The notes: generated from the sequence alone by a model not told the origin. DNA of 64,000 nt from Chloroflexota bacterium (GCA_013388755.1 JACAEQ010000052.1:1-64000), one strand, 5' to 3'. Positions 4,563 to 29,946 are shown, counted from the first letter of the stretch. Program-made: numbers and translations.

Positions 4563-6176
4563 TCAAGACGATATCAGATCCCACAGGGTCGGAGGTAGCG
4601 ACTCGCGCTTTGAGGCACGCAGCAGAGCGATCTGCGTGGCGAGGCGCGCGGCGTCGCATGTGTACGCCTTTGCGGTGACACGCAGCCCGGGCGCGACAAT
4701 ATGTGTGACGTCACGTGCCGGTTGCGCCCTGTGCCGGGATAGCCACGGCGCTCCTCCTTGCCCGCCCGGGGTGACAATCGCCGGCAGGATCGCGTGACCC
4801 TGCCGGTTGCTCTCGGTCGGGCGCGATTGCACCAGCAACAGGTGCAGTGGTATATCGGGCTGGCGCCTGAGTCTGGCGAGAAGCTCGGTGCATGCTGCAA
4901 GCGTGTCGGCATCGGGCTCGACCAGGACGATCAACGCCGGACGCACCTCTGCGCTCCGGGCACGCGCTCGCCGCATCATGCGACCCATTGCGGCAAGGGC
5001 GTCGGGAGCGGTGCAGGGGGTGCGAACAAGATGGGGCACGCCATCGTAAAGCGGGCTGATCTGTCCCTGGTCAACGATGGTCAGCGCCAGCGTTTCGGGC
5101 GCTTCTGCATAGAGCAGGCCGCTCAGCGCAGCGTGCAGTGTGTCCACGGCCAGGTCGCCGTACAGTCCGACATGGCGCCACGTGCGCAGTGGCACGTAGT
5201 AGATCGCTGTGTCGCCATGACCCATGACTGGCATACGTCTGGCCGGAGCGCGTTGCGCCACCGGCAGGAGAAATGCGGCGTAATCAGGCATCGGAACATG
5301 GTGGCGCATTGCGATCGTCAGTTCGGGCGGGGCATGCGTGTTGCCTCGCCAGGCGATGTGTGATTCTGGCCAGGTCTCCAGCAGGCGCTCCGGCAGTGTT
5401 GTGAGCGCAGTTGTTTCTTCAGGATGCGGATCGATCGTCAGGCGCGCCCATGCGTTCCGAGGGCCGGCGCATGCTTCCACCAGCAACACGGCGCTGCGCA
5501 GCCTGCCATAGTGCTCATATGCATACATCGCCAGGGTTGCACTGGTTGCAACGGAATTGCCGGGTTTAGCGATCGGTGGAATGTCCGCCGCGATGCGCGG
5601 CGCAGCGGTGTCAGGATATGCGCTGTATTCCCCGCTTACATTGTCGCTGGACGTCTGCCGTTGTATGTCGCGGCGAGGTGCATCGCGCGCAGATTGCATC
5701 AGCGAACTCCACACGCTGCGCGCCTTCGCTTTTGCGTGCTGTGCCTGGAGAACGTCGCGCGTCTTTATTGGGAAACCGGCGACGAGAAGGCTTGCGCGCT
5801 GATAACCTGCCCGTATGCGTGTCATCGTCGAGCTCGGCACATTCATGAGTGAGTACGTGAACATCGCTCGCGCGCGAGAAGGTAGATCGAGGTGGCGGCC
5901 AGCGCGGAACATCAGGAGAATCGCCGCGACGCTCCAGAGCGTGATGATCCATCCAGGAGCAGACTCGCCGATATCCATCCATGCTGTGGCGGATAGTTGT
6001 TGCCCGGTCTGCTTCGCTTTCAGCGGCAGCGGTTGATGGTTGGACTCCTGGACGATTGCCGGACCTTGAGGCGGCATGGCTGAAGGAACGTATACTGCCG
6101 CCAGCGCCACACCGGAAGCGGCGAGCAGTATCAGGCTCACAAGCAGTGCCTCAATACGCGGTGCACCGAAACGCAT
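4563..6176 (-). CDS. FtsK/VirD4-like membrane protein with a degenerate ATPase domain
   Basis: 537 residues. The N-terminus has a membrane segment (about residues 9-28) and a second near 75-90, then a low-complexity linker and a C-terminal domain. That domain follows the FtsK/SpoIIIE order: MGHGDTAIYYVPL where FtsK has its pre-Walker strand, VGLYGDLAVDTLHAAL at about 337-352 where FtsK has its GTTGSGKS loop, TIVDQGQISPLYDGVPHLV (D369) like the IDPK...Y..IPHL motif, IVLVEPDADT (E420) in place of Walker B, and IPLHLLLVQSRPT like the IHLilATQRPS motif. The P-loop Gly-Lys-Ser/Thr is absent, so it should not hydrolyse ATP normally. ATG at 6176 has GGAGG at good spacing. It is the last gene of the Tad/type IV block, so an inactive coupling-protein or scaffold role is inferred. 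Confidence 0.6.
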   Translation of the reverse strand: MRFGAPRIEALLVSLILLAASGVALAAVYVPSAMPPQGPAIVQESNHQPLPLKAKQTGQQLSATAWMDIGESAPGWIITLWSVAAILLMFRAGRHLDLPSRARAMFTYSLMNVPSSTMTRIRAGYQRASLLVAGFPIKTRDVLQAQHAKAKARSVWSSLMQSARDAPRRDIQRQTSSDNVSGEYSAYPDTAAPRIAADIPPIAKPGNSVATSATLAMYAYEHYGRLRSAVLLVEACAGPRNAWARLTIDPHPEETTALTTLPERLLETWPESHIAWRGNTHAPPELTIAMRHHVPMPDYAAFLLPVAQRAPARRMPVMGHGDTAIYYVPLRTWRHVGLYGDLAVDTLHAALSGLLYAEAPETLALTIVDQGQISPLYDGVPHLVRTPCTAPDALAAMGRMMRRARARSAEVRPALIVLVEPDADTLAACTELLARLRRQPDIPLHLLLVQSRPTESNRQGHAILPAIVTPGGQGGAPWLSRHRAQPARDVTHIVAPGLRVTAKAYTCDAARLATQIALLRASKRESLPPTLWDLISS

Positions 6177-6203
6177 ATCCATCCTCCACGCCGTTCATGG
6201 CAT

Positions 6204-7499
6204 TCACCGATCGTCGTCTGCCATCGTGATCAGCCAGGCACGTTCTCCGCTCCGCAACAGCAGTTCGGCACCGTGCCATTCACCGACCAGGTCGCCGGTT
6301 GCCGGTACGCTCTGCAGCACCACTTCACCGATCAGCAGTTCTCCCTGCATGCGGCCAATCACCACCTGACCCGCGTGTTCCACCACGACCCGCATCGTTC
6401 CATCGGCCAGCATCGTGAGCGCTCGCGCCTCAAGCGTTCCCTGCCGTTCCGGTAAGAGTGTGCCGGTATCGGCGCGCCAGAGCCACGGTGTGCCGTCATC
6501 GTCCGGGGCGATCCAGAGGAAATCATGACCTGCCCAGGTGTGCGGCGGCAGGCCGTCCGCGGGTGGCTCGGCAATCACTGCCGCAACCGGCGCGGGGCGA
6601 AGTCGGGCCAGCGTTAATGTACGTTCGTTCCCCATGCGACTTGCAATCACGACGGCATCACCACCTGGCTGCCACACAAGGCCAGTAATGCTGCCTGGCA
6701 CGGCCACGACCGGCGCTGGCGGCCCGCTCCGCGTCACATAGCTAATCTGTTCACCCGCGGCGGCGCGTTCGGCCAGTAGTAGTCCTGCGCCATCCGGCGC
6801 GAATCGCACCAGTGAAACGTCGCCTTCCGTTACGACTGGTGCGCGATTCCAGCCATGCACGAGAACCTGGCCTCCTGATTGCATGCCGGGTCGGTGGGGC
6901 TCGTAGACGGCTTCGTAGCGTGTGCTACCGGCGTGGATCATATCGGCGAGGCCACGGTAGGCGTCGATTGTCGTCAGGCGCTCGATGCCGCGCGCGCTGA
7001 TGGCAACGGTCTGAGTTGCCGCAACGATACCGGCTTCCTCACTACCGTCATCTTCCGGCAGCGGCATGGCAGCGCTCTGGAGCCGCCATGCGCCATCGGC
7101 CCGCCAGATCATGTCAATATGCATACCGGGCGCAGCGGCAGGCAACTGCTGCTCACGCGGCGCTGGCAGGCCGGGTGGCAACACGACCTCCCTCGTTTCG
7201 CTGGCCCCTAGCGTCAGATTGACCCAGGAGCGGCGACCGTCAGGGAGCGCGGCGACGATTGTGTGGTCACCGGCATACAGGTCGACGGGCCAGTGCCGTC
7301 CATCTACCGTGATAAGCGCTTCAGGCGGCGACTGGATGTGTAACGTGGCGCGACCGCGCCAGAAAGGTGGGATCGTTCCACTCGCGAGGCCGAACAGTGC
7401 CAGTAATGCGAGCATACAGGCAACGATTTTCCAATGCCAGCGAAACACAATCCGTGCCAGCAGCGCATCCATATTGATACGGTGGTCCGCAATGATCAT
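6204..7499 (-). CDS. Single-pass membrane protein, PEGA-like then propeller-like; function unknown
   Basis: 431 residues, not assigned to a named family with certainty. A short cytoplasmic N-terminus is followed by one membrane helix (about residues 25-45) and a segment reading ATLHIQSPPEALITVDGRHW, which resembles PEGA beta-sandwich domains (about 50-110). The remainder has repeating strands such as VSLVRFAPDGAGLLLAER and ITGLVWQPGGDAVVIASR, like WD40/TolB-type propeller blades, so most of the protein is probably extracytoplasmic. The start has GGAG six bases upstream. It lies between the VirB4 ATPase and the FtsK-like protein, all same strand with short gaps, which suggests a structural part of that envelope machine. 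Confidence 0.5.
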   Translation of the reverse strand: MIIADHRINMDALLARIVFRWHWKIVACMLALLALFGLASGTIPPFWRGRATLHIQSPPEALITVDGRHWPVDLYAGDHTIVAALPDGRRSWVNLTLGASETREVVLPPGLPAPREQQLPAAAPGMHIDMIWRADGAWRLQSAAMPLPEDDGSEEAGIVAATQTVAISARGIERLTTIDAYRGLADMIHAGSTRYEAVYEPHRPGMQSGGQVLVHGWNRAPVVTEGDVSLVRFAPDGAGLLLAERAAAGEQISYVTRSGPPAPVVAVPGSITGLVWQPGGDAVVIASRMGNERTLTLARLRPAPVAAVIAEPPADGLPPHTWAGHDFLWIAPDDDGTPWLWRADTGTLLPERQGTLEARALTMLADGTMRVVVEHAGQVVIGRMQGELLIGEVVLQSVPATGDLVGEWHGAELLLRSGERAWLITMADDDR

Positions 7500-7549
7500 G
7501 GCTCACTCCAGCGTGTCTTCCAGGAAGGTTTGACCTTCCCGAAAGATAG

Positions 7550-9400
7550 TCAGATGGCGCCTCCCGTGACGATACGGTGCAGCATCCCCGGCCACATCGG
7601 TATGAACAATGGGGTCCGTTCGCCGTCTGCCAGGAGTAATGCCGTTGCGCCGATGCCACGCTCGATCCGGCAGGTCGCCAGGTAGGCGGTTTCTTCATCA
7701 TTCAAACGTAGAATGGCCGCCGCCCGGTTTACGGCGTCCGAGTCCTGATTCAGCCCCAGGATAAGTTTGGTGCGCGCGTTTTCGAGCAAGACGCGCGTCT
7801 GCTCGCTTTCGTCCAGGTCGTCAAGACTCTGGGTGATGACGGTTGCCTTGAACTGGAGGCTGCGCCCGATACGGAAGATCATCTGCAGTGTGCGCGCACC
7901 GGCTTCAGAATGCAACAATGCATGGGCCTCGTCGAGTACCAGGTGGCTGCGCCGACCGGTCGGGCGATTGATCGCCGTGGTGACGAAGAAATCCATCACG
8001 ATGACCGGCAACAGCCGGGCGAGGGTCTCGTCGTTGCTCTGCAGCAGTGACCAGAGATCGATCGCCAGCAAGGGGTTGTCAGTGGGTACGTTCGACGGAT
8101 GATTGAACAGGTCGCCAATCGTGCCACGCGTGAACAGGGCCAGGGCGCGCGCAAGGTCCGGCGCGGTCTCGGCGAGCTGAACCTGCACGTCGCTGAAGGT
8201 CGGCATGGGCCGCGTGAATGTATGCGGATCGCTACTGATCTCGCGTGCTGCATAGGCTGCGGCGATTGCGTCCTGGATCGCCGCAGCGCCGACGGCGTCG
8301 ATATGGGTGCCCTGGGCCTTCAATTCACGCACGATCAGCGCCTTGATGACACTGATGCGCTGCCCGAGTAAGTCCTCTTCCAGCTCGGCGACGGCGCGGG
8401 CGCGTTCGGGCGCGAGCGCCGGTAGTTCGAGAGGATTGATATGGTAGCCGGCACGGCTGGAGAGCGAGATATATGCTCCGCCAAGCGCGGTCGCCAGCGC
8501 CCTGTACTCCTGGCGCTTGGGGTCGAGGATCAGCAGAGCGTCCTCGCCAAGTGCCAGTTCCTGCGCCAGTAACCCGCCCATGGTGTAGGTCTTTCCGCTA
8601 CCCGACTCAGCAACAATGAGCATATGCGGGTTTGCTGCCTGCCAGCGATCGTAGATCAGGGGCGCGCCGCTGCGCGGGTGCTCGCCCCAGATGATCGGTA
8701 ATCCGCCGTGCCGGGTCAGCCCCGGCGATGTTGTTGGCAGACCCATAGCGGCTACCCGCCCGCTGATATCGTGCACCAGACCGAGCGCCTCGCGCCCCAG
8801 CGGTAGCGCATTGATGTACCCTTCCCATTGCTGAAACTGCGCCACACCAAGCAAGATGCCTTGCTGTGCTGCTGCGAGCCGTACCCGGTCAACGCGCGCC
8901 GCCAGTTCCTCGGGGGTTGCGGCGGCAATGCTGATAGTCACCACCATCTGAAACAGACGATCAACGCCGGCCGCCAGGTCGCGCCGGAGCGTTGCTGCGG
9001 CCTCGGCCCCCTGCTGGGCGTCGGCGTCGAAATGTGTGCCGGCCTGGGCGTCACCGGCCAGCGTTCCGAGCGCCGCATCTTCGCTGCGGGCCAGCGCCCG
9101 GCGCGCAAGCGCATCGGGTAGCGGAACAATGCGTTGATGGATGGTAATTCCGGGCGCATCAAGGCCAAGAGCAGGATCACTAATCCATGCCAGCGACAAC
9201 GTCGGCGGGAACGTGCGTACCTCGAGTGTGGTGAAGAATGAATCGCCCACCTGGATCATGTGGCTCCAGTGACGATCGATGCCGTCAGGGGCAAGCAGAT
9301 CGGCGAGGGTCGTTGCGCCGGAAGGCAATGTTGCATTCCCGGCCCGGCGACGGCGCGCCGGTTCAATGATCGGTTTGTTCAATGCATCGCGGAGCGGCAT
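7550..9400 (-). CDS. virB4: VirB4/TraC-family type IV secretion ATPase
   Basis: 616 residues. This is the energy-supplying ATPase of type IV secretion systems, a peripheral inner-membrane protein that powers pilus assembly or substrate export. Walker A is AESGSGKT with K270; LLILDPKRQEY follows; Walker B is LVLDEAHALL with D490/E491; and VITQSLDDL matches the sensor/TQ motif. The N-terminal 230 residues resemble the middle part of TraC/VirB4, but the earliest VirB4 region seems to be encoded by the separate gene immediately upstream. The start has GGAGGAG nine bases upstream. PrgI-like and VirB2-like genes lie just upstream, the usual order in Gram-positive conjugation modules. All ATPase motifs are intact, so it should be active. 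Confidence 0.9.
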   Translation of the reverse strand: MPLRDALNKPIIEPARRRRAGNATLPSGATTLADLLAPDGIDRHWSHMIQVGDSFFTTLEVRTFPPTLSLAWISDPALGLDAPGITIHQRIVPLPDALARRALARSEDAALGTLAGDAQAGTHFDADAQQGAEAAATLRRDLAAGVDRLFQMVVTISIAAATPEELAARVDRVRLAAAQQGILLGVAQFQQWEGYINALPLGREALGLVHDISGRVAAMGLPTTSPGLTRHGGLPIIWGEHPRSGAPLIYDRWQAANPHMLIVAESGSGKTYTMGGLLAQELALGEDALLILDPKRQEYRALATALGGAYISLSSRAGYHINPLELPALAPERARAVAELEEDLLGQRISVIKALIVRELKAQGTHIDAVGAAAIQDAIAAAYAAREISSDPHTFTRPMPTFSDVQVQLAETAPDLARALALFTRGTIGDLFNHPSNVPTDNPLLAIDLWSLLQSNDETLARLLPVIVMDFFVTTAINRPTGRRSHLVLDEAHALLHSEAGARTLQMIFRIGRSLQFKATVITQSLDDLDESEQTRVLLENARTKLILGLNQDSDAVNRAAAILRLNDEETAYLATCRIERGIGATALLLADGERTPLFIPMWPGMLHRIVTGGAI

Positions 9401-9421
9401 GACACGATCTCCTCCTCGCCA

Positions 9422-10105
9422 TCAGGCTTCAGCAATAATCATGTGTCGAATACGTTCGAGGAGGGTGCCCGCAAGCGGGTAACGCGCGGCGCGTAGCGGA
9501 TCGGTGAGACGAAACAGTAGCCGGGCGATCTCTTCAGCTTCAAGCAGACGTGGCAATGGTACGCCGTCGAGCGATGCCAGTGCATCGGCCAGACGTCGGG
9601 CCCGCGCCACTGCCTCGGCGATCACGGCGGTCGCCTGCGCGACCCGAGGTCCCGCCGGCCTGGTCGCGGCGCGCTGAAAGAGTGCGCTGAGGTTGGCCGT
9701 CTTTGCGACAACCAGGCTGGCCGGCGAGGGGTCAACCGTCACCGCCCAGATCGTGAGCCGGCTGCGACTGATGGTTGCCGTCGCCCGGTCGTCCAGGTAG
9801 TCCGCAAGTTCGTCGAGGATCATGGACGCGGCCGGGTTCACGGCGCGTTTGCTTCGCTGGTAGAGATCGGTGATCTCGTTCGCCAGGTCGGGCGCTCCAT
9901 CGAAACTGTAGATGTCAAGAGGTGCATCCTGTGCCAGCAGGAGACGGTGGTACGCTTCTGCAACATGCGCCCGGCTCGCGCTGGAACGTAGATCCCATGC
10001 CGGTGCTCCGCCACCGACCAGCCCGACAGCGCAACCATCCGGTCGCAACAGGGCGCCGCGCACAATGTGTTGCGGAAACAGGTCGCGTAGATCGTTGTCG
10101 TTCAT
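9422..10105 (-). CDS. Probable detached N-terminal domain of VirB4 (hypothetical)
   Basis: 227 residues. The order of elements, starting LFPQHIVRGALLRPDG, then AHVAEAYHRLLLAQDAPLDIYSF, ANEITDLYQRSKRAV and LTIWAVTVD, matches the non-ATPase N-terminal domain that precedes the P-loop domain in VirB4/TraC proteins of Gram-positive type. The C-terminal third is Ala/Arg-rich helix. The start ATG overlaps the PrgI stop as ATGA and has an AGGAG upstream; the longer open frame further upstream was rejected because it runs through the PrgI gene. VirB4 follows 21 nt downstream. I infer a split VirB4 whose two products act together; an unrelated accessory protein is possible. Confidence 0.5.
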   Translation of the reverse strand: MNDNDLRDLFPQHIVRGALLRPDGCAVGLVGGGAPAWDLRSSASRAHVAEAYHRLLLAQDAPLDIYSFDGAPDLANEITDLYQRSKRAVNPAASMILDELADYLDDRATATISRSRLTIWAVTVDPSPASLVVAKTANLSALFQRAATRPAGPRVAQATAVIAEAVARARRLADALASLDGVPLPRLLEAEEIARLLFRLTDPLRAARYPLAGTLLERIRHMIIAEA

Positions 10106-10485
10106 CGCCCTTGCTCCTCTTGCTGCCAGCGCGGGCGTGGCATCACCGTGGCCGCAACCGGTGGCTCCGGTGGCAACGTCACCAGCGGTCGAGCAAGGCG
10201 GAGGCGCTGTCTCCTGCTCATATGACGCCACACAATCGTTATAACCTCACGTGACGACCGCCCCCACAGGCGGCCTTCGGTCACGAGCAGGCCACCCAGG
10301 ATCAGGCCGCCCGTGCTCCAGATCGCGCGTTCAATATCTGCGCCGAGGGTGATGGCGATCCCGCCGGTTGCTATCAGTCCTGCGGTCATCAAGAATGCGC
10401 GGGCCGGCACGCGCATCCCGGCAAGCTGGACCGAAGCGCTTACCCGCAGCCGGCGTGGAACAACCGCGCCCAGGTAGTCATTCAT
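10102..10485 (-). CDS. PrgI/VirB3-like type IV secretion membrane protein
   Basis: About 127 residues with two adjacent hydrophobic helices (roughly residues 30-72), a short basic N-terminus and a long polar, basic C-terminal tail. This size and layout fit PrgI/VirB3 proteins, which sit in the inner membrane next to VirB4. ATG at 10494 touches the GGAGG and has no spacer, so ATG at 10485 (nine-base spacing) was chosen. The stop overlaps the next gene as ATGA. Position between the VirB2-like and VirB4 genes is the main support, since these proteins conserve little sequence. Confidence 0.6.
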   Translation of the reverse strand: MNDYLGAVVPRRLRVSASVQLAGMRVPARAFLMTAGLIATGGIAITLGADIERAIWSTGGLILGGLLVTEGRLWGRSSREVITIVWRHMSRRQRLRLARPLVTLPPEPPVAATVMPRPRWQQEEQGR

Positions 10486-10504
10486 GGTGGTCATCCTCCA
10501 CGAA

Positions 10505-10804
10505 CTAGCCGCTCAGCCCCATCGCCCAGGTGACGATGCTGGTTGATTGGTTGGCGACCACCAGCAGAATGACGAACACGGCCAGGTCGATCCCTGCGCT
10601 GCGCAGGTCGCGCGGCGAGGAGAAGATGTGTTTCGCCAGGTCAATCAGCAGGAAGAAACCGCCGGCCACGGTGATAATGTTCTTCAGCCAGTCGAACAAT
10701 GCTTTGAAGAGGCCGTCGAACTTTGGCGGCTCGGCAAGGTTCTGCCAGACGTCTGCAGGCAGGTGTGATGTGAGTGTGACGATGATACAGGTGATCGTTG
10801 ACAT
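10505..10804 (-). CDS. VirB2/TrbC-like small membrane protein (candidate T4SS pilin)
   Basis: 99 residues with two predicted membrane helices (about residues 43-60 and 72-92) separated by a short basic loop, the architecture of VirB2/TrbC pilins and of the small membrane proteins that precede PrgI in Gram-positive conjugation operons. It carries no cleavable signal peptide that I can defend; the first 12 residues are only mildly hydrophobic. AAGGAG lies about 11 nt upstream of the ATG. Assignment rests on size, topology and the following prgI-virB4 order. Confidence 0.5.
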   Translation of the reverse strand: MSTITCIIVTLTSHLPADVWQNLAEPPKFDGLFKALFDWLKNIITVAGGFFLLIDLAKHIFSSPRDLRSAGIDLAVFVILLVVANQSTSIVTWAMGLSG

Positions 10805-20413: not shown

Positions 20414-21682
20414 TCAGCTGGCACCTGTCTGCGCCGCCGCCTGTAACGGCGTGATACCGGGCTTGCCAGGGAACAGCCGGCGAAACAGGCTGGCGGTCGG
20501 TCTCGGTTGGGGCGGGGTCAACCCGATCACGGTGCAGATGGTGTCAACCAGATCGTGGACCGCCAGCGAAAATGGGCGAAACCGGCCGACATCCAGCGGC
20601 GAGACATAGCGATCGGCCTCTTCATTCGCCAGGCTGACCAGGTGCGGGTCGCGGGGTAGGGTGCCGACAATGCGTGCCTTCGGCCAGTGCTGGCTGAACA
20701 ACGGCGCGACATGCCGCAACCCGACGGTGACGCCGCGTTCGGGTTCCATCAGCACCAGCAGGCAGCGGTCGGTCAGGTCCGGCTGATGTGCTGCGAATTG
20801 CTGGAGAGCAATGCCGACGCCGGCACGCTCCTTGCGTCCTGGCGGAGACGGCAACACGACCCAGCCGCCGTTGCGCGCCGCTTCGAGAGCGTAGGGCCGC
20901 TTTTTCATATCGGGACCGGTATCGATCAGGACGACGTCGTAATCCTGTTCGAGCGTCTCGCCCAGACTGCCGATGGCCTGCATCAGCGCGCGCCAGTCAG
21001 GTAGTGTGAAGTCGGCGGCGAGCGCGGCTTCATCGGCGCCGAGGAGGAAGTCAATGCCACTCGGCGCGTGATGGTAGATCAGGCGGGCGATATTGGCCGG
21101 CGTGAATTGCGTATGGCCGCGCCCTTCCTGGCGCAGGGTCAGAAATGAGCCGAAGCCTGTGGGGATACGGAACTCAGGCACCAGGCCCGAGTTTGAGAGG
21201 TCGCCGTCAACCACCAGCACACGCAGCCCCCGGCGGTGCATTCCCTCGGCGAGTGCTGAGACGACCAGGCTCTTGCCGATACCACCCTTTGCGCCGCCTA
21301 CAGCAATCGTCACCTGCCTGGCTGCAATGCGCCGGGCCGCCCCCAGTTGCTGCGCGATCCAGCCGGCGAGTGCCTCTGGTTCGCGTAGTGTGGTGACAGC
21401 CAGTCCGGCGTCGGCAAAATCACTGGCGTGGACAATCCCGATACTCTGCAGGCCTACCAGCACACGCACGCCATGCGCCTGCGCGGCGTGGATAATGTCC
21501 CAGAGCTCGGCGACGGTGCCGCGTGTATCTTCGAGGTACACGACCGGCGGTGGTTGTTCGCTGACCACCAGGCTGCGCACACGCGCCAGGCCAGGCGCCG
21601 GGAATGGCTGGATGCCATTGTAGCCGGCGAGGGCCTCAACCATGCCCGGAGTATTGGTAACGAGCAGGAGTTCGGTTGCCAT
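20414..21682 (-). CDS. cpaE: CpaE/TadZ-like pilus-assembly ParA/MinD-family ATPase
   Basis: 422 residues. The N-terminal 110 residues form a receiver-like domain without an obvious phosphorylation site. Then comes a ParA/MinD ATPase with the deviant Walker A GGAKGGIGKS (K132), VVDGDLSNSGLV, and VVLIDTGPDM. CpaE/TadZ proteins place the Tad machine at the cell pole or at a defined site. ATG at 21682 has AAAGGAG at good spacing; a longer open frame reaching to 22177 only shadows the neighbouring ATPase gene and was discarded. It sits between two VirB11-type ATPase genes, an order compatible with Tad operons. The 128 bases before the next gene show nothing clear. Confidence 0.85.
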   Translation of the reverse strand: MATELLLVTNTPGMVEALAGYNGIQPFPAPGLARVRSLVVSEQPPPVVYLEDTRGTVAELWDIIHAAQAHGVRVLVGLQSIGIVHASDFADAGLAVTTLREPEALAGWIAQQLGAARRIAARQVTIAVGGAKGGIGKSLVVSALAEGMHRRGLRVLVVDGDLSNSGLVPEFRIPTGFGSFLTLRQEGRGHTQFTPANIARLIYHHAPSGIDFLLGADEAALAADFTLPDWRALMQAIGSLGETLEQDYDVVLIDTGPDMKKRPYALEAARNGGWVVLPSPPGRKERAGVGIALQQFAAHQPDLTDRCLLVLMEPERGVTVGLRHVAPLFSQHWPKARIVGTLPRDPHLVSLANEEADRYVSPLDVGRFRPFSLAVHDLVDTICTVIGLTPPQPRPTASLFRRLFPGKPGITPLQAAAQTGAS

Positions 21683-21753: not shown

Positions 21754-23010
21754 TTAGAGACGCCCTTTCCCCCAGGCGCCCTGCACCGGATATTTCCGTT
21801 CGAGACGGCCAGTCTGGGCGCTGAATGCGTAGAGCGTATTGTGCGGAATCGTATCGCCGGCCTGGCCACCACTGGTGACGAGCACCTCCACGATCTGGCC
21901 GACGCACCGGCGCCCGCCATAGTTGCCGATGTGAACCACGATGAGTGGCACGGCGCCGCCGGTCATCATGCCGCGTACGATTCCGGCGTTGCCTTCGGCG
22001 CCACGGGCTGCAAAGCGCTCCAGGTTGCGCAATGCCGTGAGCGCATCCGGCCCGTGGATCGTGCAGATGCCGGGGTGGCCGGTGGCGGCGGCTTCGAGCA
22101 TGGCGAGTGCCTCGGGGCCGCGCACCTCGCCGAGCACGATTACATCCGGGCGCTGGCGCAAGGTAAGTCTGACGCAATCGGTGAAACTGCTCTGGCTACG
22201 TAATACCTCGACTGCCATACCGTCGGGCGGCAGCGGCAACTCGCGCGCATCCTCGATGACGATCACGCGCTTCTCTTCGGCGATCGCCTGTAGCAGCGCG
22301 GCAGTCAGCGTGGTTTTGCCGCTGCCGGTGCCGCCGGCGATCAGAATCGTGACGCCGCGGCGGATTGCCTCGAGGAGCAACTCGGCGGCATCGCGCGGTA
22401 ATATGCCGCTCTCGTGCTGCACCAGGTCGTGGATGGTGCGCCAGCGCGCAGGCAAGGCGCGTACCGCGACGGATGGGCCGTCAGGAGTATAGGGCGGCCG
22501 GGTGATGGCAAACCGTAACCGGCGATCGGCGGTGCCATAGAGCGCATGGACAGGATGCCCATCGGCGTTGCGCCAGTCGCCAGGCGCTTCGGGCGTGACG
22601 AAACCGGCACGCAACAGCAACTGGCGCTGGGTCCAGTGAATCCAGTCCTCGCACACGAGAACGCCCGTGTCGCTGCGGTTCCCCTGTTCCACAACAACCA
22701 TTGCCCGGTCAGGACGATTGATCAGGATATCGGACGCCGCTGTACCCGGACAGAGCCAGGTGTCAAGCGGGCCATACCAGGGGATCTCGGCCCACTCGGC
22801 CGTGGTGTATCCTTCGCCAAGACCGGCACGCACCAGGGTTTCGGTAACCGGTCGCCTCCAATCGCCCAGGCGGCCGGTCTCCTGGCAGAACCGCAGTTCT
22901 GCCAGGCGATCACTTGCTCCCGACGCCGGATCAAGCGCGCGGCTCCTGTGATTACAGTGAATCGCGTCTGGATGCTCATCACCCTCAGTGGTCAGCGGGG
23001 ATCTGGCCAT
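21754..23010 (-). CDS. Second VirB11/CpaF-type secretion ATPase (TrbB-like)
   Basis: 418 residues, the usual length for the family. Motifs: GGTGSGKT (K232), VIEDARELPLP Asp box, QRPDVIVLGEVRGPEAL Walker B, and GICTIHGPDALTAL His box. All key residues are present, so it should be an active hexameric ATPase. GGAG lies seven bases before ATG 23010. It is distinct in length and tail from the 688-residue ATPase two genes downstream. One could serve Tad pilus extension and the other retraction or the type IV secretion part; which is which cannot be told from sequence. Confidence 0.85.
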   Translation of the reverse strand: MARSPLTTEGDEHPDAIHCNHRSRALDPASGASDRLAELRFCQETGRLGDWRRPVTETLVRAGLGEGYTTAEWAEIPWYGPLDTWLCPGTAASDILINRPDRAMVVVEQGNRSDTGVLVCEDWIHWTQRQLLLRAGFVTPEAPGDWRNADGHPVHALYGTADRRLRFAITRPPYTPDGPSVAVRALPARWRTIHDLVQHESGILPRDAAELLLEAIRRGVTILIAGGTGSGKTTLTAALLQAIAEEKRVIVIEDARELPLPPDGMAVEVLRSQSSFTDCVRLTLRQRPDVIVLGEVRGPEALAMLEAAATGHPGICTIHGPDALTALRNLERFAARGAEGNAGIVRGMMTGGAVPLIVVHIGNYGGRRCVGQIVEVLVTSGGQAGDTIPHNTLYAFSAQTGRLERKYPVQGAWGKGRL

Positions 23011-23050: not shown

Positions 23051-23956
23051 TTACGGCACATTGGCTGGCTGTATGCCTGGCACCGGGCTGCTGGTTCCGG
23101 GAACCGTCTGCAACGGCGCGACGCGTTGCGGCTCGATGCGCAGGGTTGTCGTGACGGGTTGTGTCAGGTCGGGCAGGATGACCTGCGAAGCGTCAAGGCG
23201 ATCCATGTGCATCAGCGGTGTTGACCGGGCGCCATAACGCTCACCCCATAATGTGACGCCGGCCGCCTGCAAGGCGCGCAACGCATGCGCCTGGGCTGGC
23301 GTCATTTCGAGGTATGCGATTCCGTCGCCCTCGCCGCCTGCGATATAGAGGATTGGCACACCCGACATCCAGCGGCAGGCGTATGCCAGCGACTGTGCCG
23401 TATCGCCTGTGTGCGACAATGGCGCAACAGGTTCGAGGGCGGCGCCTGCCGGGACATCGGCATGTTCGCGATCACACAGCGCAGGATCAGCCGACAAAAA
23501 GCCAATGTTGAGCGTGTCACGATCGGTAATCGGTCCGACCGCATTCAGGGCGAATGGCACAGGGACCATGTTGTGCCCAAGTTCGCGCCCGTTCGGATAG
23601 ACCGGATGATCTGGCGGGTTGTTTGCCAGCATTGCCGGCTGGACCAGGTCATTGGCTCCGATCTGGCGCGTAGCATAGGTTCCGATGACGGCGTTCGGGT
23701 CGCCGACGCCGGCAAGTTGCGCCGGCCGGTGCAGCGGCAACTCGATCGTCGCCAGGTCGTCGGCGCTAATCTGCTGCCCATAGGGAACGTCACGCGCGGC
23801 AATGACTACTCGCTCGGTGCGGCGGCTCTCGATGTATCCATAGGCCGCCGCGGCAATGGCAATCGCCATGCCGACGATCAGGAGCAACGCCGGCAACAGG
23901 CTCGACCGTTTCGGCGTCAGGGCGCTGCTCAACGGAGTAGATAGGCTTGAAGACAT
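23051..23956 (-). CDS. cpaB: CpaB/RcpC-like SAF-domain pilus protein
   Basis: 301 residues with an N-terminal membrane helix (about residues 22-42) followed by the SAF-type segment VVIAARDVPYGQQISADDL and ATRQIGANDLV (about 49-110), which are hallmark CpaB/RcpC features. The remaining extracytoplasmic part is less conserved and ends in a Pro/Thr-rich tail. CpaB is thought to help pilus export or stability at the cell wall. ATG at 23956 overlaps a stop codon in another frame as TGATG, which shows that the preceding small gene ends there and is coupled. An AGGAGG lies at the right distance upstream. Confidence 0.8.
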   Translation of the reverse strand: MSSSLSTPLSSALTPKRSSLLPALLLIVGMAIAIAAAAYGYIESRRTERVVIAARDVPYGQQISADDLATIELPLHRPAQLAGVGDPNAVIGTYATRQIGANDLVQPAMLANNPPDHPVYPNGRELGHNMVPVPFALNAVGPITDRDTLNIGFLSADPALCDREHADVPAGAALEPVAPLSHTGDTAQSLAYACRWMSGVPILYIAGGEGDGIAYLEMTPAQAHALRALQAAGVTLWGERYGARSTPLMHMDRLDASQVILPDLTQPVTTTLRIEPQRVAPLQTVPGTSSPVPGIQPANVP

Positions 23957-24335: not shown

Positions 24336-24959
24336 CTATCTCTCGACGCGATCCAGTGTTGATGCGGCGGTGATCTGCGGCTGGTAGGGCGCGTACCCCA
24401 GCAGCGCAAAGCCGGTCAGCACGGGCCGCACCTCGGCGCACACCACCGGCGTAACGAATGTCTGCGCCGGCAATCCGGCAAACCGGCAGGTTCCCCCTTG
24501 CGGAAGGATCGTCCACGTTACGCGGTTGACCAGCGTCTCCACCGGCTCGCTCAGGCCGTGTACCGTGCCAAGATTCTGCGCAAACGTCTGTGTCGCGACC
24601 TGTTGCACCCGCGCTTCGTCGATCCGTTCGCTGTTCTCGGCCAGCGCGGCATAGTCGAGCAACTGCACCGACGCCCGCGCCGCCTGTTGCAACGCATCCT
24701 GCATCTGCGCCACTTCCAGTTGCCGCTCGCTGAACTCGACAATGCCGAAGATGAACGGTACGGCACATGCCAGCACCAGGGCGAAAAACACCAGCGATTG
24801 CCCTTCGGAACGCTGAACGTTGAACGCTGAACGCTGGACGTTGAACGTTGAACGTTGAACAGGGAACGGGCAGCAGCGAACAATCTGTCGTTGTTGTAGT
24901 CGTACTTGATTCAACCAACCATGCAGTTTTGACGGTATATGGCGTAATCGGTTATGCAT
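24336..24959 (-). CDS. TadE/TadG-like pseudopilin-type protein with repeat-expanded leader
   Basis: 207 residues. A TadE/TadG-like motif, GQSLVFFALVLACAVPFIFGI followed by EFSERQLEVAQMQDA, starts near residue 53; normally it lies within the first 15-20 residues. The extra leader is basic and contains repeated FNVQRS units encoded by a 9-nt tandem repeat (24809-24860). The rest is a small extracytoplasmic domain with two Cys. TadE-type proteins are minor pseudopilins of Tad systems. AGAGGA lies eight bases upstream of the ATG; an internal start nearer the helix cannot be excluded. The next TadE-like gene is just upstream. Confidence 0.7.
   Translation of the reverse strand: MHNRLRHIPSKLHGWLNQVRLQQRQIVRCCPFPVQRSTFNVQRSAFNVQRSEGQSLVFFALVLACAVPFIFGIVEFSERQLEVAQMQDALQQAARASVQLLDYAALAENSERIDEARVQQVATQTFAQNLGTVHGLSEPVETLVNRVTWTILPQGGTCRFAGLPAQTFVTPVVCAEVRPVLTGFALLGYAPYQPQITAASTLDRVER
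24809..24860. repeat. 9-nt tandem repeat inside the TadE/TadG-like leader
   Basis: About six imperfect copies of a 9-nt AACGTTGAA/AACGCTGAA unit. Because nine is a multiple of three it stays in frame and adds FNVQRS-type units to the protein's cytoplasmic leader. Confidence 0.85.
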
Positions 24960-25014: not shown

Positions 25015-25533
25015 TTACTGCGCATCTTTCTCCGCCGTCCGCACCGCGCTGCGATCGACCGTCACCTCCGACAGGCCAGGAATCGGTGTCCAGAGCGCGC
25101 CGTGGTAGGTGATCCGTACCGTGATGGGGCTATAGCGGCGGCAGGGATTCGCGGCGCAGCGCGCGCTAATCGTGGCCGCGGCGGGATCCGCGAAGGCGCT
25201 ACCGGCGAAGGCGTTGCGCGCCGCTTCGGCGACCGGCCCCGGCGCTTCCGCCAGGCCGTAGGCGCGGTCGCGTTCCAGCCCGCCGGTCGAGCCGAGGAGT
25301 GCCGCCTGGTGTGCCGCCACCCGCACCGCCTGGTTCACCGCATAGTGCGTCCCGATCGCCTGTAACGCCCCCAGGCCGCCGAAGATGATCGTCAGCACCA
25401 GCAGCAGGACGATCGCGGTTTCCACGATGGCCTGACCGTTGCAAGGATGCCGGATGCAGCATGAAGGTTGAGAACGCCGTTGTCCGTGCGGTATTCCTTG
25501 CGCTGTATCGTTATCGTAGAACGAACGTAGCAT
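25015..25533 (-). CDS. tadE: TadE-like pseudopilin-type protein
   Basis: 172 residues. The TadE signature GQAIVETAIVLLLVLTIIFGG starts at about residue 33, including the Glu that is typical of the segment after the cleavage point. A helical stretch (NQAVRVAAHQAALLG) and a small beta domain with two Cys follow. It is probably a minor pilin or pseudopilin anchored in the membrane and processed by a TadV-type peptidase, which is not encoded in this window. GAGGAG precedes the ATG. It lies downstream of the DUF11 surface protein gene. Confidence 0.78.
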   Translation of the reverse strand: MLRSFYDNDTAQGIPHGQRRSQPSCCIRHPCNGQAIVETAIVLLLVLTIIFGGLGALQAIGTHYAVNQAVRVAAHQAALLGSTGGLERDRAYGLAEAPGPVAEAARNAFAGSAFADPAAATISARCAANPCRRYSPITVRITYHGALWTPIPGLSEVTVDRSAVRTAEKDAQ

Positions 25534-25686: not shown

Positions 25687-25720
25687 TGTCTCCCCGTCTC
25701 CCCGTCTCCGCGTCTCCTCA
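25687..25720. repeat. Short CCGTCTCC-type tandem repeat
   Basis: Four near-identical copies of an 8-9 nt GTCTCCCC unit between the TadE-like gene and the DUF11 protein gene, reaching the latter's stop codon at 25718-25720. It is another junction-located microrepeat but with a different unit. Confidence 0.65.
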
Positions 25721-28426
25721 CCGTGCGTCGCGTGGTACCAGCAGCGTCGGCGTGAACCCGCCGGTGACGGTGTGCGTGCGGTAGAGCAACACACTGGTCG
25801 CGCTGCCGTCACCATTCAGGTCATAGCTGCCGTTCTCGCTGAGCGTGCTCAGCACCGCGATCTGGATCGCCAGGTCGGTGGGGCCGGCGGGCAGCGGCGT
25901 CAGCATATACACATCGGCGCGCATACGCTCGGGCGGCGTCGCAGCCCAGTAGAGATGCCCCATGCCCGCCATCTCTGCCGCGCTCGGGTTCGCCAGGTAG
26001 CGGTAGACACATCCCTGCAGCGCGCTCAGGTCGGCATTGGCGATCTCGCCCGCCGTCGGCGTGGTGCGCGCCTTGCAGCCTGCCCCGCCCGGCTGTAGCC
26101 CGCCCGAGCGCACAAAGCTCCATGCGACCACCTGTTGTGTCAGGCGGTAGAACCCTTCCGGTGGCTGCGCCGGTGGCTGGAGTTCGATGAATGGCGCGAA
26201 GTCGAGCACCTCGCCTGCCGGCCAGCGGAATGCGCTGCCGCTCGTCAGGTACACCCCGTCGTTCGGATCGAGCGACGAGTGGATGCGCAGGCGGAACGTC
26301 GCCTGCGGTGGCGGGGCGCGCAGCACGACCGTTGAGGTCTCGGCTTCGTTATCGAGCTGGTTCGCATCCTCCGGCGACTCGATCCACACCACGTTGCGCA
26401 ACACGTTCGGCGCGGCATCCTCGACGCGAATCCGTAGCGTGATGGTCGCGCTTGCACCGGCAGGAACCGTGCCCAGATCCCAGGTCACGCGCTGCTGCCC
26501 GCCGGCATCTTCGTTCAAGGCCGGCGCGCGACTGCTGGAGAGCAGCGTGATGCCCGGCGGCAGCAGGTTCTTCAGTGTGGTGAAGCGCACCGGATAGCCG
26601 GTGGTATTGCGGTAGCCGATGGTCAGGTCGATGCTCTGCCCGGGTTCGACTGTACGCGGCGCGCTGGCAGTGACGGTGACGTTCCCCTGCGGCACGCTGG
26701 TGGTCGCTTCGGCGTGGTTATCGCGCGGGTCGCTGTCGTTCGTTGCCGTGATATCGGCGACGTTCACCAGCGACGCGGGCGCATTGCCGTTGACCGTCGC
26801 GCGCACCGTGATGGTTCCTGATGTCCCCGCCGGCACATCACCCAGATTCCAGCTCAATCGCCGGCCACTGATGCCCGCCGGCGCGGGGCTGGCGCTGACG
26901 TAGGTCACGCTTGCCGGCAGGTCGTCGGTGAGGGTCGCGCCAGTGACCGTGCCAGGCGAGGCGTTCTGGTAGAACAGGGTGTACTCGATCGTCTCGCCGC
27001 GCAGCGCGATGTCCGGCGCGCTCTTGGTGAGCCCCAGGTTCGGCTGCACCACCGGGAAGGTGCTGAAGAGCAACTGCGAGCTGTTGTAGTACCAGCGCCC
27101 GCACGCCTCGCGCCCGACGGTGCCGACCAGCCGGTAGACGCGGTTCGGCTGCGTGACGAAGCGCACGCTGTAGCTGTTCGCGCCGTCGCGCGAGTCGACG
27201 ATCCACCAGCGCTCGCCTGGACCGAGGTCTGGCGTGCTGGCGCGCTGGCCGTAGGTGCTGCCGGTGCGCGACTCGAACATGACGCTGGCAGTGCTCCAGG
27301 CGCCGCCGCCGAGGCCGAAGCCACCGATGTTACCGGGGTAGTCCACCGGGCCATTGGCGGGGATGCCATCGCCGAAGTAGTCGGTCTTGATCCAGTCACG
27401 CGCGACGCGCATCACGCGCGGGTCACCCTCGGCGCTGCCGTTGAGCCAGGTGAGCAGCGTATCGGCATTCGCACCGCCACCGCCAGGCGCGCCGTCCGCG
27501 CCCAGGTCCTGCAGCGCCAGCATGAACTCGCGCCGGCTACTCTGCGGCCCGCCGACCAGGCCGTAATCCACCGGCTGGTTGTTGGTCATGCGGGTCAGGC
27601 CGACTTCGAACACGGCGCGCATCTCCACCCCTGCCGCAATCTGTGGGTAGGGCGCGGGCGGAACAGCCGGCGCTACCGCGCCACCCTGCATCTCGCTGGC
27701 GTGGCTGCCCGTGCGCAGGTAGGGCCAGCCTGGCACCTGCCACGCGCCACCCATGAATGCCTGCACCGTGAGCGGCATCGGCCCGAACGGGATGACATCG
27801 CTGTCGTAGCACGGCGGTGGAGTAGGGAGAACAAAAGATGTTGGTGGGATAAGAATTGGTGGCACCGTCGGTGGCGGGCCGCTGACCGGTGTTCCCGGTA
27901 CGCCGCCGCCACCGCCAATCGTCGGCGTGACCGCATTGGGGCCTTCGGCGCGGCAGACATCGTTATGCTCAAAGGCCCAGTGCTCGCTGCTCGGGCCGAT
28001 CCAGTGCTGCGCACCATTGCGGATTTCCAGCGTCCAGCGCCCGCCGTGGTGCCAGACGCCGGCCGGCCAGTACATGAAGCGGCCATTGACGATACAGGCG
28101 TCGCGCGGCTCATAGGTCGGGTAGCCGCCATGGCTGGCGAGGCTCGGCGACTGGCTGTAGTTCCGCCCGACACTCTGGCGGTCGGGCTTGTACTCATACA
28201 GCGTCGGGCTGCCGGGCGTCACCTCGCTGGAGCAGACCGTCACATTTCCCTGCTGGACACAACCGCCGCTGACCACATCAGCCTTGACCCAGCCAGAGCC
28301 CGGGCCGGCGAAGGCGGGTAGCGCGGGCAGGATGGCCAGCAGGAGCAGGGCAGGCAGCGACATCCAGTTCGCGGTGGGCAGGCGGCCGTGCTGACGAGCG
28401 GCGGCTGAGCTGGATAGGACGGTCAT
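25718..28426 (-). CDS. Large secreted DUF11-repeat surface protein
   Basis: 902 residues. A signal peptide (about residues 15-35, LLLLAILPALPAFAG) leads into a long Tyr/Pro/Gly-rich N-terminal region with no recognised domain, then two DUF11 (conserved repeat) beta-sandwich domains, roughly 460-560 and 575-690. The first carries NLGLTKSAPDIALRGETIEYTL and DDLPASVTYVSAS; the second the matching TLKNLLPPGITLLSSS. A C-terminal domain follows; there is no LPXTG motif. GGGAG lies seven bases upstream of ATG 28426. It precedes the TadE-like genes in the operon, so it may be a cargo, adhesin or pilus-associated protein. That link is inference. Confidence 0.75.
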   Translation of the reverse strand: MTVLSSSAAARQHGRLPTANWMSLPALLLLAILPALPAFAGPGSGWVKADVVSGGCVQQGNVTVCSSEVTPGSPTLYEYKPDRQSVGRNYSQSPSLASHGGYPTYEPRDACIVNGRFMYWPAGVWHHGGRWTLEIRNGAQHWIGPSSEHWAFEHNDVCRAEGPNAVTPTIGGGGGVPGTPVSGPPPTVPPILIPPTSFVLPTPPPCYDSDVIPFGPMPLTVQAFMGGAWQVPGWPYLRTGSHASEMQGGAVAPAVPPAPYPQIAAGVEMRAVFEVGLTRMTNNQPVDYGLVGGPQSSRREFMLALQDLGADGAPGGGGANADTLLTWLNGSAEGDPRVMRVARDWIKTDYFGDGIPANGPVDYPGNIGGFGLGGGAWSTASVMFESRTGSTYGQRASTPDLGPGERWWIVDSRDGANSYSVRFVTQPNRVYRLVGTVGREACGRWYYNSSQLLFSTFPVVQPNLGLTKSAPDIALRGETIEYTLFYQNASPGTVTGATLTDDLPASVTYVSASPAPAGISGRRLSWNLGDVPAGTSGTITVRATVNGNAPASLVNVADITATNDSDPRDNHAEATTSVPQGNVTVTASAPRTVEPGQSIDLTIGYRNTTGYPVRFTTLKNLLPPGITLLSSSRAPALNEDAGGQQRVTWDLGTVPAGASATITLRIRVEDAAPNVLRNVVWIESPEDANQLDNEAETSTVVLRAPPPQATFRLRIHSSLDPNDGVYLTSGSAFRWPAGEVLDFAPFIELQPPAQPPEGFYRLTQQVVAWSFVRSGGLQPGGAGCKARTTPTAGEIANADLSALQGCVYRYLANPSAAEMAGMGHLYWAATPPERMRADVYMLTPLPAGPTDLAIQIAVLSTLSENGSYDLNGDGSATSVLLYRTHTVTGGFTPTLLVPRDAR

Positions 28427-28500
28427 GACGTTCTCCCAGAGCTGCAATGTGATGATGTGATGCGGTAGAACGTGTCTCTAGAAATATGAGATTGCAGTGA

Positions 28501-29223
28501 TTACAGGCCAGGAATCTCTGGATAGACGCCAAGCGTAATCACCCAGGCAGAGGTTCCAGCATAAGCGCCAGCAGCGATCGGGTATACTCCCATACCAATG
28601 TAATTAGAAGTCCGATCGAGTATGACGTACCGATGCCCCGCTGGACTATCCATCCACCCGCGCACAACGTGCTCAGGTGATGTATAGCCCCATCCAGCTG
28701 CTTCGGTCCATGGCGTTCCGGCGAATCCTTCCTCAAGCATGCGTTGAAAGTGGGTCGAACCGTCACTTCCTGTATGACCAATGGCATTATTCACCGCCAT
28801 ATCCATCGCGTGCCGCCGGGCTGCCTGTGTGAGCGCCGGGTCTTCGATGAGCGGCCAGAGGCCGGCGGCGGCGCGTTGTTCGTTGACCAGGCGCAATACT
28901 TCCAATTCGTAGGCGCGATTGGCGGGCGGGTACTTCTCGGCGCGCTGGATGACGGGCAGGTAGATGGTGTACTCCATAGCGGATAGCGGATAGCGGATAG
29001 CCGATAGGTTGTCGCTGGTCGGCTCGGCGTTGACCGGCTGCGCTGGTTCGGCGAGGGGGCTTTCGGCAACCGGCGTCGGGACGGGATCAACCAGCGTCGG
29101 CCGGGTCGGGTCGGCGGGTTGCGCTGTATCAGCTATCGCGTATCGGCTATCGGCTATGAACAGGGCGATGATCGCGGCGACCAGGGCGACGAGCAGAGAG
29201 CGAGTTGTGGCGCCAGCTTTCAT
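28501..29223 (-). CDS. Secreted CAP (SCP/PR-1) domain protein
   Basis: 240 residues. The N-terminal membrane/signal helix (about residues 8-26) is followed by a Pro-rich linker partly encoded by 9-nt repeats, then a CAP domain (about 115-240): RLVNEQRAAAGLWPL, ALTQAARRHAMDMA, GHTGSDGSTHFQRM, SPEHVVRGWMDSPAGHR and ITLGVYP. The paired His and Glu of CAP domains are visible. Bacterial CAP proteins are extracellular; their activity is usually unknown. ATG at 29223 has AGGAGA upstream and was chosen over a further upstream ATG that would read through a repeat. Probably a surface or secreted product of the same operon. Confidence 0.85.
   Translation of the reverse strand: MKAGATTRSLLVALVAAIIALFIADSRYAIADTAQPADPTRPTLVDPVPTPVAESPLAEPAQPVNAEPTSDNLSAIRYPLSAMEYTIYLPVIQRAEKYPPANRAYELEVLRLVNEQRAAAGLWPLIEDPALTQAARRHAMDMAVNNAIGHTGSDGSTHFQRMLEEGFAGTPWTEAAGWGYTSPEHVVRGWMDSPAGHRYVILDRTSNYIGMGVYPIAAGAYAGTSAWVITLGVYPEIPGL
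28976..29007. repeat. 9-nt tandem repeat, ATAGCGGAT type, within the CAP protein linker
   Basis: Three and a half copies of a 9-nt unit, in frame, encoding repeated SAIRYPL-type residues between the membrane anchor and the CAP domain. A related TATCGGCTA array lies at 29138-29158 in the same gene and another near 62806-62826. Confidence 0.75.
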
Positions 29224-29249
29224 AGGGCTATCTCCTGATACAACCTTCC

Positions 29250-29302
29250 TACGTTCCCACGTTCCACGTTCCACGTTCCCACGTTCCACGTTCCACGTTC
29301 AC
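29250..29302. repeat. ACGTTCCAC tandem array between two surface-protein genes
   Basis: About six copies of a 9-10 nt ACGTTCC(C)AC unit fill the gap between the CAP gene start and the stop of the upstream gene (29299-29301). It is the clearest of the junction arrays in this operon. Confidence 0.88.
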
Positions 29303-29946
29303 CGCCCGACGATCATCACGGTCGAGTCGTCCATCCCGTCGTTCAGATCGGCATCGGCGAAGACCGCGACGCCTACGGCGCTAAGGCCGCTCAGGTTAAG
29401 CTGGCTGAAATCCATGCCGGCGAACGGGCAGGTTGCGCCGGTTGCTGTGACTGATTCAAGGCCAGGGGCCAGAGTCACCGGAACGGCGGCGACATAGGCG
29501 TACTGATTACCGGCGACCGTACTCAGTTCCAGTTCAGGTTCCGCGACCGTCGCGCGCCACAGGCCGGCGGCGGCATCGTCGAGGGTCGTGTCGCGGGCGA
29601 GTTCCCCATTCCCCGCGGCGCACTGGATCGCGGCCAGCGCCGGCGCGGCATAGCCCTCATCGGGCAGACGGGTGGCGAGCAGGCCACGATCGGCGGCGGG
29701 GCGAGCAGGGCCGCTGGCGGGGCCGGTGCGGGCAGGCGCGGCGGGGCGAATCACGGGCGGATCGGCAATCAGCGGCGCAGGGGCGGCAGGTTCGGCGCGC
29801 GGCGCGGCGCTATCCCCGAGCAACACCGGTGCGACCGGTGCGGGCGGAAGCATACGCAGCACGCCAGCAAGTGCTCCGGCAACGAACAGCACCGCCCCGG
29901 CAACAACCAGACGGTGACGGTGGATGGACCAGGTAACACGCAACAT
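29299..29946 (-). CDS. Membrane-anchored protein with Ala/Pro-rich linker; function unknown
   Basis: 215 residues. A short N-terminus and a single membrane helix (about residues 14-33) are followed by about 70 residues of Ala/Pro-rich linker and a C-terminal domain with two Cys (IQCAAGNGEL and GATCPFAGMDF) that ends VFADADLNDGMDDSTVMIVG. I do not recognise the family. ATG 29946 has a GAGGG upstream; an open frame continues 30 codons further but lacks a ribosome site. It is the first gene of the long minus-strand Tad/type IV block, behind a candidate promoter at 30066-30094. Confidence 0.55.
   Translation of the reverse strand: MLRVTWSIHRHRLVVAGAVLFVAGALAGVLRMLPPAPVAPVLLGDSAAPRAEPAAPAPLIADPPVIRPAAPARTGPASGPARPAADRGLLATRLPDEGYAAPALAAIQCAAGNGELARDTTLDDAAAGLWRATVAEPELELSTVAGNQYAYVAAVPVTLAPGLESVTATGATCPFAGMDFSQLNLSGLSAVGVAVFADADLNDGMDDSTVMIVGR

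Follow-up and report, generated by a model that had tools for sequence, protein, structure and literature searches.

A conserved Tad and type IV secretion gene block in Roseiflexus-like Chloroflexota, probably a domesticated conjugation machine

INTRODUCTION

What kind of machine is encoded when genes for a Tad pilus and genes for a VirB-type type IV secretion system (T4SS) lie in one chromosomal block, and is it one machine at all? The question is raised by a stretch of 64,000 nucleotides from a Chloroflexota bacterium (GCA_013388755.1 JACAEQ010000052.1:1-64000; the window), in which open reading frame (ORF) calls place about 20 genes, all on the minus strand, in a hybrid block at 4563-30036. 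Its Tad module consists of TadE, TadG, CpaB, two TadA-type ATPases (TadA1 and TadA2), CpaE, TadB, and TadC, and its T4SS module consists of a VirB8-like protein, VirB6, a wall hydrolase, VirB2-like and PrgI-like proteins, VirB4, a propeller-like protein, and an FtsK-fold protein. We read the block as a domesticated Tad-linked conjugation machine, with a probability of roughly 0.6, which is now probably a contact-dependent exporter. Gene content, conservation, intact motors, a pseudo-ATPase, a split-off VirD4 gene, and the lack of a known relaxase are read from the sequence; that the halves form one machine, its direction, and its substrate, we infer.

RESULTS AND DISCUSSION

Layout of the block

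A first-pass annotation of the window had described Tad and T4SS genes in one minus-strand block of about 20, and the genes and their order bear this out, with Tad genes and VirB4 as co-directional neighbors. Its starting point of 4563 holds, but the far end lies near 30036 rather than 29946. The close spacing it noted is found in gaps of -32 to 128 bp, with the exception of 379 bp between CpaB and TadG and 184 bp between TadE and the DUF11 gene. The one TadA it listed proved to be two TadA-type ATPases, and of its two TadE-like genes one is TadE and the second is TadG-like. A promoter and terminator scan of the block did not reveal a clear internal boundary.

Domain evidence is firm for VirB4, both T2SSE ATPases, CpaE, CpaB, TadE, the DUF11 and CAP proteins, and the M23 hydrolase; it is weaker for VirB6, TadG, and TadB and weak for TadC. 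The labels PrgI-, VirB2-, and VirB8-like refer to size, topology, conservation, and position. A PHROGs search returned weak, generic ATPase matches only.

Conservation and selection

The gene order, proposed for checking in other Chloroflexota genomes, recurs there: the same genes, in the same order and on one strand, occur in three Roseiflexus genomes and in G058, which belongs to another genus, so the block is more than a chance arrangement. In two more Roseiflexus genomes, TadA2 and VirB4 are co-directional on a single contig, at a distance of about 9 kb. VirB4 orthologs are found at 85-87% identity in all six Roseiflexus-like genomes (order search), and further orthologs at 58-67% in three related genomes from two genera. 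Altogether, ten genomes hold this VirB4 clade, and at all seven loci on long-enough contigs (several relatives' loci stop at contig borders) Tad genes lie upstream and are co-directional; an eighth locus, in G059, has TadC, TadB, and part of TadA2 where its contig ends.

Ratios of nonsynonymous to synonymous substitution (dN/dS) of 0.08-0.32 across the block, measured against one Roseiflexus genome and rough because synonymous sites carry more than one change per site, point to purifying selection. Catalytic motifs are intact in VirB4, TadA1, TadA2, and VirD4. The idea of a dedicated envelope machine, put forward in the first-pass annotation, is thus a fair reading of a locus that is conserved, chromosomal, and under purifying selection. 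A decaying remnant of an integrated conjugative element (ICE) is the least probable of the readings considered here: the relaxase is gone, VirD4 is split off, and a pseudo-ATPase is present, as decay would have it, but all reading frames are open, purifying selection is strong, and the same content is found in several species and genera.

A pseudo-FtsK gene and a relocated VirD4

The gene that had been called FtsK/VirD4-like is the following.

4563-6182, minus strand: pseudo-FtsK (g1), FtsK/TcpA/EccC fold (AlphaFold model versus FtsK motor, 3.3e-8, probability 1.00; the model is modest, with a predicted local distance difference test score [pLDDT] of 47 overall and about 75 in the core)

The FtsK fold of this call holds, but the Walker A motif (P-loop) is lost in all six orthologs (alignment), and for this reason g1 is unlikely to be a working coupling ATPase; that ATPase is encoded at another locus instead. 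A VirD4 of 976 amino acids with an intact P-loop lies on another contig (G000:C104:4733-7663). It has no direct Pfam match and matches a profile built from the VirD4 proteins of related loci with an E value of 4.5e-164. Each Roseiflexus genome tested has one VirD4, at a separate locus and with 66-67% identity. The remote VirD4 is preceded by a gene for 158 amino acids that, by eye, corresponds to the C terminus of g1 in its longer form, as found in G058 and G060, two related genera in which VirD4 still follows g1 within the block. On the simplest reading, a break within g1 divided the ancestral operon, and the last piece was relocated together with VirD4. A T4SS without a coupling protein (Ptl- or ComB-like) was considered and is ruled out by the VirD4 at the second locus.

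The same VirD4 bears on DNA uptake of the ComB or Ced type, in which the Tad pilus would catch DNA and the T4SS would import it. Tad pili and T4SS-type importers each serve DNA uptake elsewhere, and VirB4 has a weak CedB match (1e-6). We nevertheless regard uptake as very improbable: ComB-type uptake runs without VirD4, which is conserved here, and the genome encodes an ordinary ComEC channel, so that DNA uptake needs no such machine. Competence as the main role was rejected on account of ComEC.

Absence of a relaxase and descent from a mobile family

The relaxase families PF13814, PF03432, and PF08751 are absent from the window genome, in a genome search in which other families were not searched. 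A replication-relaxation-like gene of the type found at the sister loci is absent from the window genome, from four Roseiflexus genomes, and from G058; only a fragment of it is present in G068, the fifth Roseiflexus genome. No integrase was found in the flanks of the block, where the scanned genes are ordinary metabolic and cellular ones. With these four relaxase or relaxase-like models negative, the earlier statement that no relaxase or integrase lies nearby stands, and a mobile replicon with a relaxase, as in Tad-linked plasmid and ICE machines, was not found here.

In the VirB4 tree, the window VirB4 is the sister of VirB4s on Chloroflexaceae contigs that are near-identical between genera. 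At these sister loci, VirB4 is followed by the propeller-like protein, a g1 homolog, and a VirD4 of about 1180 amino acids, and in G032 and G016 a relaxase-like gene comes after VirD4; the arrangement is that of a conjugative element. Since the T4SS half comes from a family still traveling on mobile elements in Chloroflexaceae, the machine is best seen as conjugation derived. The replication-relaxation-like protein of the mobile family is diverged, and Pfam does not detect it. The VirB4 contigs L021, L019, L026, L012, and L025, near-identical across Chloroflexaceae genera, represent a recently moving family of conjugative-type elements.

In a rival reading, the block would still transfer DNA, chromosomal or from an element, to other cells, using a relaxase of an unrecognized family encoded elsewhere and the remote VirD4 as coupling protein. 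VirD4 and VirB4 are intact and conserved, the T4SS has close relatives with a conjugative layout, and a hybrid block in G044 (Herpetosiphonaceae) holds VirD4 and Replic_Relax together. We consider DNA transfer unlikely, although the foremost of the rivals, given the four negative models in the window genome and a fixed chromosomal site with vertical conservation and no integrase.

The Tad module

The genes of the Tad half are as follows.

25015-25533, minus strand: TadE-like minor pilin (PF07811, 5.6e-6)
24336-24959, minus strand: TadG-like minor pilin, start uncertain (PF13400, 0.028, weak; orthologs at 56-65%)
23051-23956, minus strand: CpaB/RcpC with SAF domain (PF08666, 5e-11)
21754-23010, minus strand: TadA1 secretion ATPase, Walker A intact, paralog of TadA2 (PF00437, 1.6e-31; TIGR02782, 1.7e-38; tree)
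20414-21682, minus strand: CpaE/TadZ, MinD/ParA-type ATPase, start most likely at 21682 (PF13614, 3.4e-9; CpaE_hom_Actino, 3.5e-6)
18219-20285, minus strand: TadA2 Tad ATPase with C-terminal extension, catalytic motifs intact (PF00437, 7e-25; TIGR03819, 5.2e-33; alignment)
17232-18179, minus strand: TadB-like inner-membrane platform protein (profile match to the canonical TadB of the same genome, 1.9e-5)
16408-17199, minus strand: TadC-like inner-membrane protein, weakly supported (profile match to an Embleya T2SSF protein, 1.5e-4; position after TadB)

The TadA-type ATPases carry GSGKT and GE(I/V)RG motifs. TadB and TadC have no direct Pfam match; the canonical TadB used for comparison is T2SSF positive (4.5e-19). 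The Flp major pilin (PF04964) lies outside the window, with a single match in the genome, at G000:C29. Neither the secretin RcpA nor a prepilin peptidase was recognized among the block genes, and no genome-wide secretin search was made. Roseiflexus castenholzii appears to lack an outer membrane (PMC7332563).

The ATPase tree places TadA1 and TadA2 in sister clades that are restricted to Chloroflexales (support, 98/96; long branches) and separate from the genome's three canonical TadA loci. Both phylogenies follow the host families, which argues for an old Tad module passed on vertically. Nearly all sampled Chloroflexaceae, and two Herpetosiphonaceae, have TadA2 orthologs. The assignment of TadA1 as the VirB11/TrbB of the T4SS, suggested by its best NCBIfam match (TrbB, 1.7e-38), was rejected: the tree makes it the sister of TadA2, and it is present in Chloroflexaceae that have no T4SS.

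Two minor observations concern this module. ARAGORN calls a tRNA-Arg (ccg) antisense in CpaB at 23625-23714 (plus strand), which is absent from the CpaB of relatives and is probably false. In G007 (L071/L072), the TadA2 match contains a TGA that interrupts the gene, and TadA1 and CpaB are separated by about 2 kb of additional DNA, so the Tad module may be broken in that genome.

The T4SS module

Besides g1, the T4SS half comprises the following genes.

15686-16381, minus strand: VirB8-like, one transmembrane segment and a possible NTF2-like domain (low-confidence model; position)
13646-15676, minus strand: VirB6/TrbL-like multipass protein (PF19597, 0.0026, and PF04610, 0.042, both below cut-off)
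10873-13677, minus strand: wall hydrolase, M23 peptidase motifs split by a long insert (PF01551, 7.8e-12, in two stretches)
10505-10804, minus strand: VirB2-like small protein, two predicted hydrophobic segments (80-83% identity in Roseiflexus by alignment; size, position)
10102-10494, minus strand: PrgI/VirB3-like small membrane protein (position, topology; no family match)
9422-10105, minus strand: protein of 227 amino acids just upstream of VirB4 (orthologs beside VirB4 in nearly all relatives)
7550-9400, minus strand: VirB4 ATPase, Walker A and B intact (P-loop_TraG of Pfam, 5.8e-13; CD1110 VirB4 of NCBIfam, 1.6e-61; PDB 4ag5, 4e-22)
6204-7499, minus strand: membrane-anchored protein, PEGA-like plus beta-propeller by eye (orthologs at 57-59% in Roseiflexus and about 27% in mobile T4SS loci; no Pfam match)

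The best family match of VirB4 is to CD1110-type VirB4 of the monoderm conjugative T4SS, at 208 bits against a cut-off of 325, i.e., below the family cut-off; the window system also differs from that type in its attached Tad module and in that no relaxase was found. The propeller-like protein is a conserved neighbor of VirB4 across the T4SS family, and of 20 other Chloroflexota T4SS loci, most have a VirB6-like homolog close to VirB4. The 227-amino acid protein has a profile match (1.3e-4) to the gene preceding VirB4 on a Pontibacillus plasmid; its longest ORF reaches 10231, and the start is most likely at 10105.

The model of the VirB8-like protein (pLDDT 51, low confidence) has NTF2-like structural neighbors that include the VirB8 domain of pCF10 PrgL (7aed), none of them significant, and a PDB sequence search with this protein gave no match. 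The hydrolase insert matches PF13539 at 0.006 (0.0046 in an ortholog), both below cut-off, and may hold an M15-type (D-Ala-D-Ala) peptidase nested in the M23 domain, in Roseiflexus as well.

Tad-T4SS linkage elsewhere

The two kinds of modules had been said normally to occur separately. This is not supported: conjugation-type elements from Chloroflexota, Actinomycetota, and Bacillota include several in which the two kinds are neighbors, with a published case on Sulfobacillus plasmids (PMC6803676). Within Chloroflexaceae, a stand-alone module (for example, in G006, G008, G013, and G028) has the same order as the window, DUF11-TadE-TadG-CpaB-TadA1-CpaE-TadA2-TadB-TadC, but it stops at TadC, is followed by unrelated genes, and has no T4SS. 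Herpetosiphonaceae G044 has an orthologous Tad module with TadA1 and TadA2, as in the window, and after it an NlpC hydrolase, VirB6-like, VirB2-like, and PrgI-like proteins, VirB4, VirD4, and Replic_Relax. It differs in having VirD4 and Replic_Relax inside the block and in a VirB4 of a very distant lineage: a single-sequence search with the G044 VirB4 misses that of the window, and profile comparison did not link its small T4SS proteins to those of the window. Among 40 further Chloroflexota VirB4 neighborhoods, five have Tad genes (TadA and/or TadE/TadG) just upstream and co-directional; in G226, TadA is on an adjoining stretch.

Outside the phylum, plasmids of Embleya NBC_00896 (NZ_CP108778) and Nocardioides JS614 (pNOCA01) resemble the system described here in gene content. 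They carry SAF/CpaB, a CpaE position, TadA, T2SSF, and TadE/G, and close to these lie genes of the PrgI or SCO6880 family, a VirB4-like ATPase, and genes for VirD4 or TraM recognition. They differ from the window in being plasmids and in having only one TadA and another gene order; the Embleya plasmid also has a replication-relaxation gene and the Nocardioides plasmid is typed as MOBF. By annotation, Tad and T4SS sets also occur together on an Alicyclobacillus plasmid. The backbone of Sulfobacillus thermotolerans pL15/pY0017, described as T4SS plus type II secretion system homologs, holds TadA/CpaF, TadB/TadC-like proteins, VirB4, a TraG-type coupling protein, a lytic enzyme, and a relaxase (PMC6803676). 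This likeness is by description, and the backbone differs in being plasmid- or ICE-borne, in having a relaxase, and in belonging to another phylum. The canonical Tad/Flp pilus has TadA, TadB, CpaB, CpaE, and TadE/G in common with the block, but the block has no Flp pilin and its two paralogous ATPases fall in a separate clade.

In the literature we found no description of a Tad-T4SS architecture in Chloroflexota; only PMC6803676 comes close. The architecture as such is not new, and the window block is a variant of a little-described kind. Across Chloroflexota, Actinomycetota, and Bacillota, the joining of Tad modules to unrelated T4SSs took place several times, and this repetition is the strongest argument that the two halves work together. 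It suggests that Tad-T4SS coupling is a recurrent, little-noticed route by which bacteria that have no classical outer membrane conjugate or export.

This linkage also bears on whether two independent machines merely share an operon, the Tad pilus serving adhesion or gliding and the T4SS serving export. The Tad module is free-standing in Chloroflexaceae and in G050, and T4SS-only loci exist in Chloroflexaceae, as expected of separable machines. On the other hand, two T4SSs that are very distant from each other are joined, in similar order, to one and the same Tad lineage, and other taxa have unrelated Tad modules next to VirB4, which in Chloroflexota lie immediately upstream of it and run in the same direction. 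Two machines are therefore quite unlikely. In G050 (L067, Herpetosiphonaceae), where the Tad module has no T4SS at that locus, two WXG100-like small proteins (by eye) are encoded directly downstream of the Tad module, at 3776-4521.

A proposed working of the machine

As a domesticated conjugation machine, the block could have arisen when an old, vertically inherited Chloroflexales Tad module was joined in Roseiflexaceae to a T4SS of a still-mobile family. A relaxase-type gene would have been lost after the joining, and VirD4 would have been kept and shifted to a second locus in the Roseiflexus clade. TadA2 and TadA1, with TadB/TadC and CpaE, may build a TadE/TadG pseudopilus or short pilus for contact, while the M23/M15-like hydrolase would open the wall. 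The PrgI-, VirB6-, and VirB8-like proteins could potentially make an inner-membrane channel, into which VirB4 and the remote VirD4 would feed substrate, powering and selecting transport, with the pseudo-FtsK as a scaffold without ATPase function. The cargo may be proteins delivered to the surface or to neighboring cells; protein is the likeliest cargo because no relaxase was recognized.

Several points weigh against this reading. Chloroflexaceae retain the Tad module although they have no T4SS to go with it, which means that this half can function by itself; the block of G058 lacks TadA1; and many relatives in the same family lack the block. The PrgI, VirB2, and VirB8 assignments are by position and topology, no substrate signal was found, and a relaxase of an unsearched or unknown family may exist. 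If the reading is correct, a conjugation-type machine has become a fixed cell organ, with its relaxase lost, its motors kept, its VirD4 relocated, and one FtsK-family protein turned pseudo-ATPase, and the block offers a defined gene set for studying cell-to-cell transfer in filamentous Chloroflexota.

A more specific form, in which the Tad motor and VirB channel are one physical machine passing protein or DNA between the cells of one filament, is improbable; if true, the block could underlie the septal channels of R. castenholzii. Roseiflexus carries the T4SS half, and G006, presumably Chloroflexus aggregans, lacks it. Septal channels were seen in R. castenholzii by cryo-tomography, with no genes assigned and with pili near the septa; C. 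aggregans is without them (PMC7332563). Viridilinea has them as well. No Viridilinea VirB4 locus was returned from the searched collection, in which the presence of Viridilinea is unconfirmed. The septal-channel link is weak because Viridilinea has channels but no VirB4 locus was returned.

Surface proteins, repeats, and flanking genes

Three genes for anchored, secreted, or surface proteins lie at the 5' end of the block.

29299-30036, minus strand: N-terminally anchored protein of 245 amino acids at the block 5' end, poorly conserved (ORF; no Pfam match; weak homolog only in G065)
28501-29289, minus strand: CAP-domain secreted protein (PF00188, 7.2e-17; homologs only in G064/G065)
25718-28447, minus strand: DUF11 surface protein (PF01345, 2.9e-27)

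The DUF11 protein accompanies the Tad module in Chloroflexaceae without a T4SS, and because it keeps to the Tad module there, it is disfavored as T4SS cargo, contrary to the suggestion in the first-pass annotation that the machine perhaps exports the surface proteins encoded at its 5' end. Tandem repeats with 7- to 8-base units (GAACGTT, ATAGCGG, TTCCACG, and GTCTCCCC) are found at 24808-24860, 28976-29007, 29246-29300, and 25688-25717, at the starts of, inside, or between the TadG, TadE, DUF11, and CAP genes, and might be phase variable. The annotated 5' end of TadG contains the heptanucleotide repeat at 24808-24860, and the CAP start region that at 29246-29300; both annotated starts are therefore doubtful. 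The true CAP start is probably downstream, since the annotated one lies inside a heptanucleotide repeat.

Two ORFs in the flanks deserve mention. One (36573-42587, plus strand) encodes a bacterial alpha-2-macroglobulin of 2004 amino acids with several N-terminal Ig-like domains, and the other (58102-60240, plus strand) encodes an unusual mix of a CHAT (caspase-like) domain, LysM, and a polysaccharide deacetylase.

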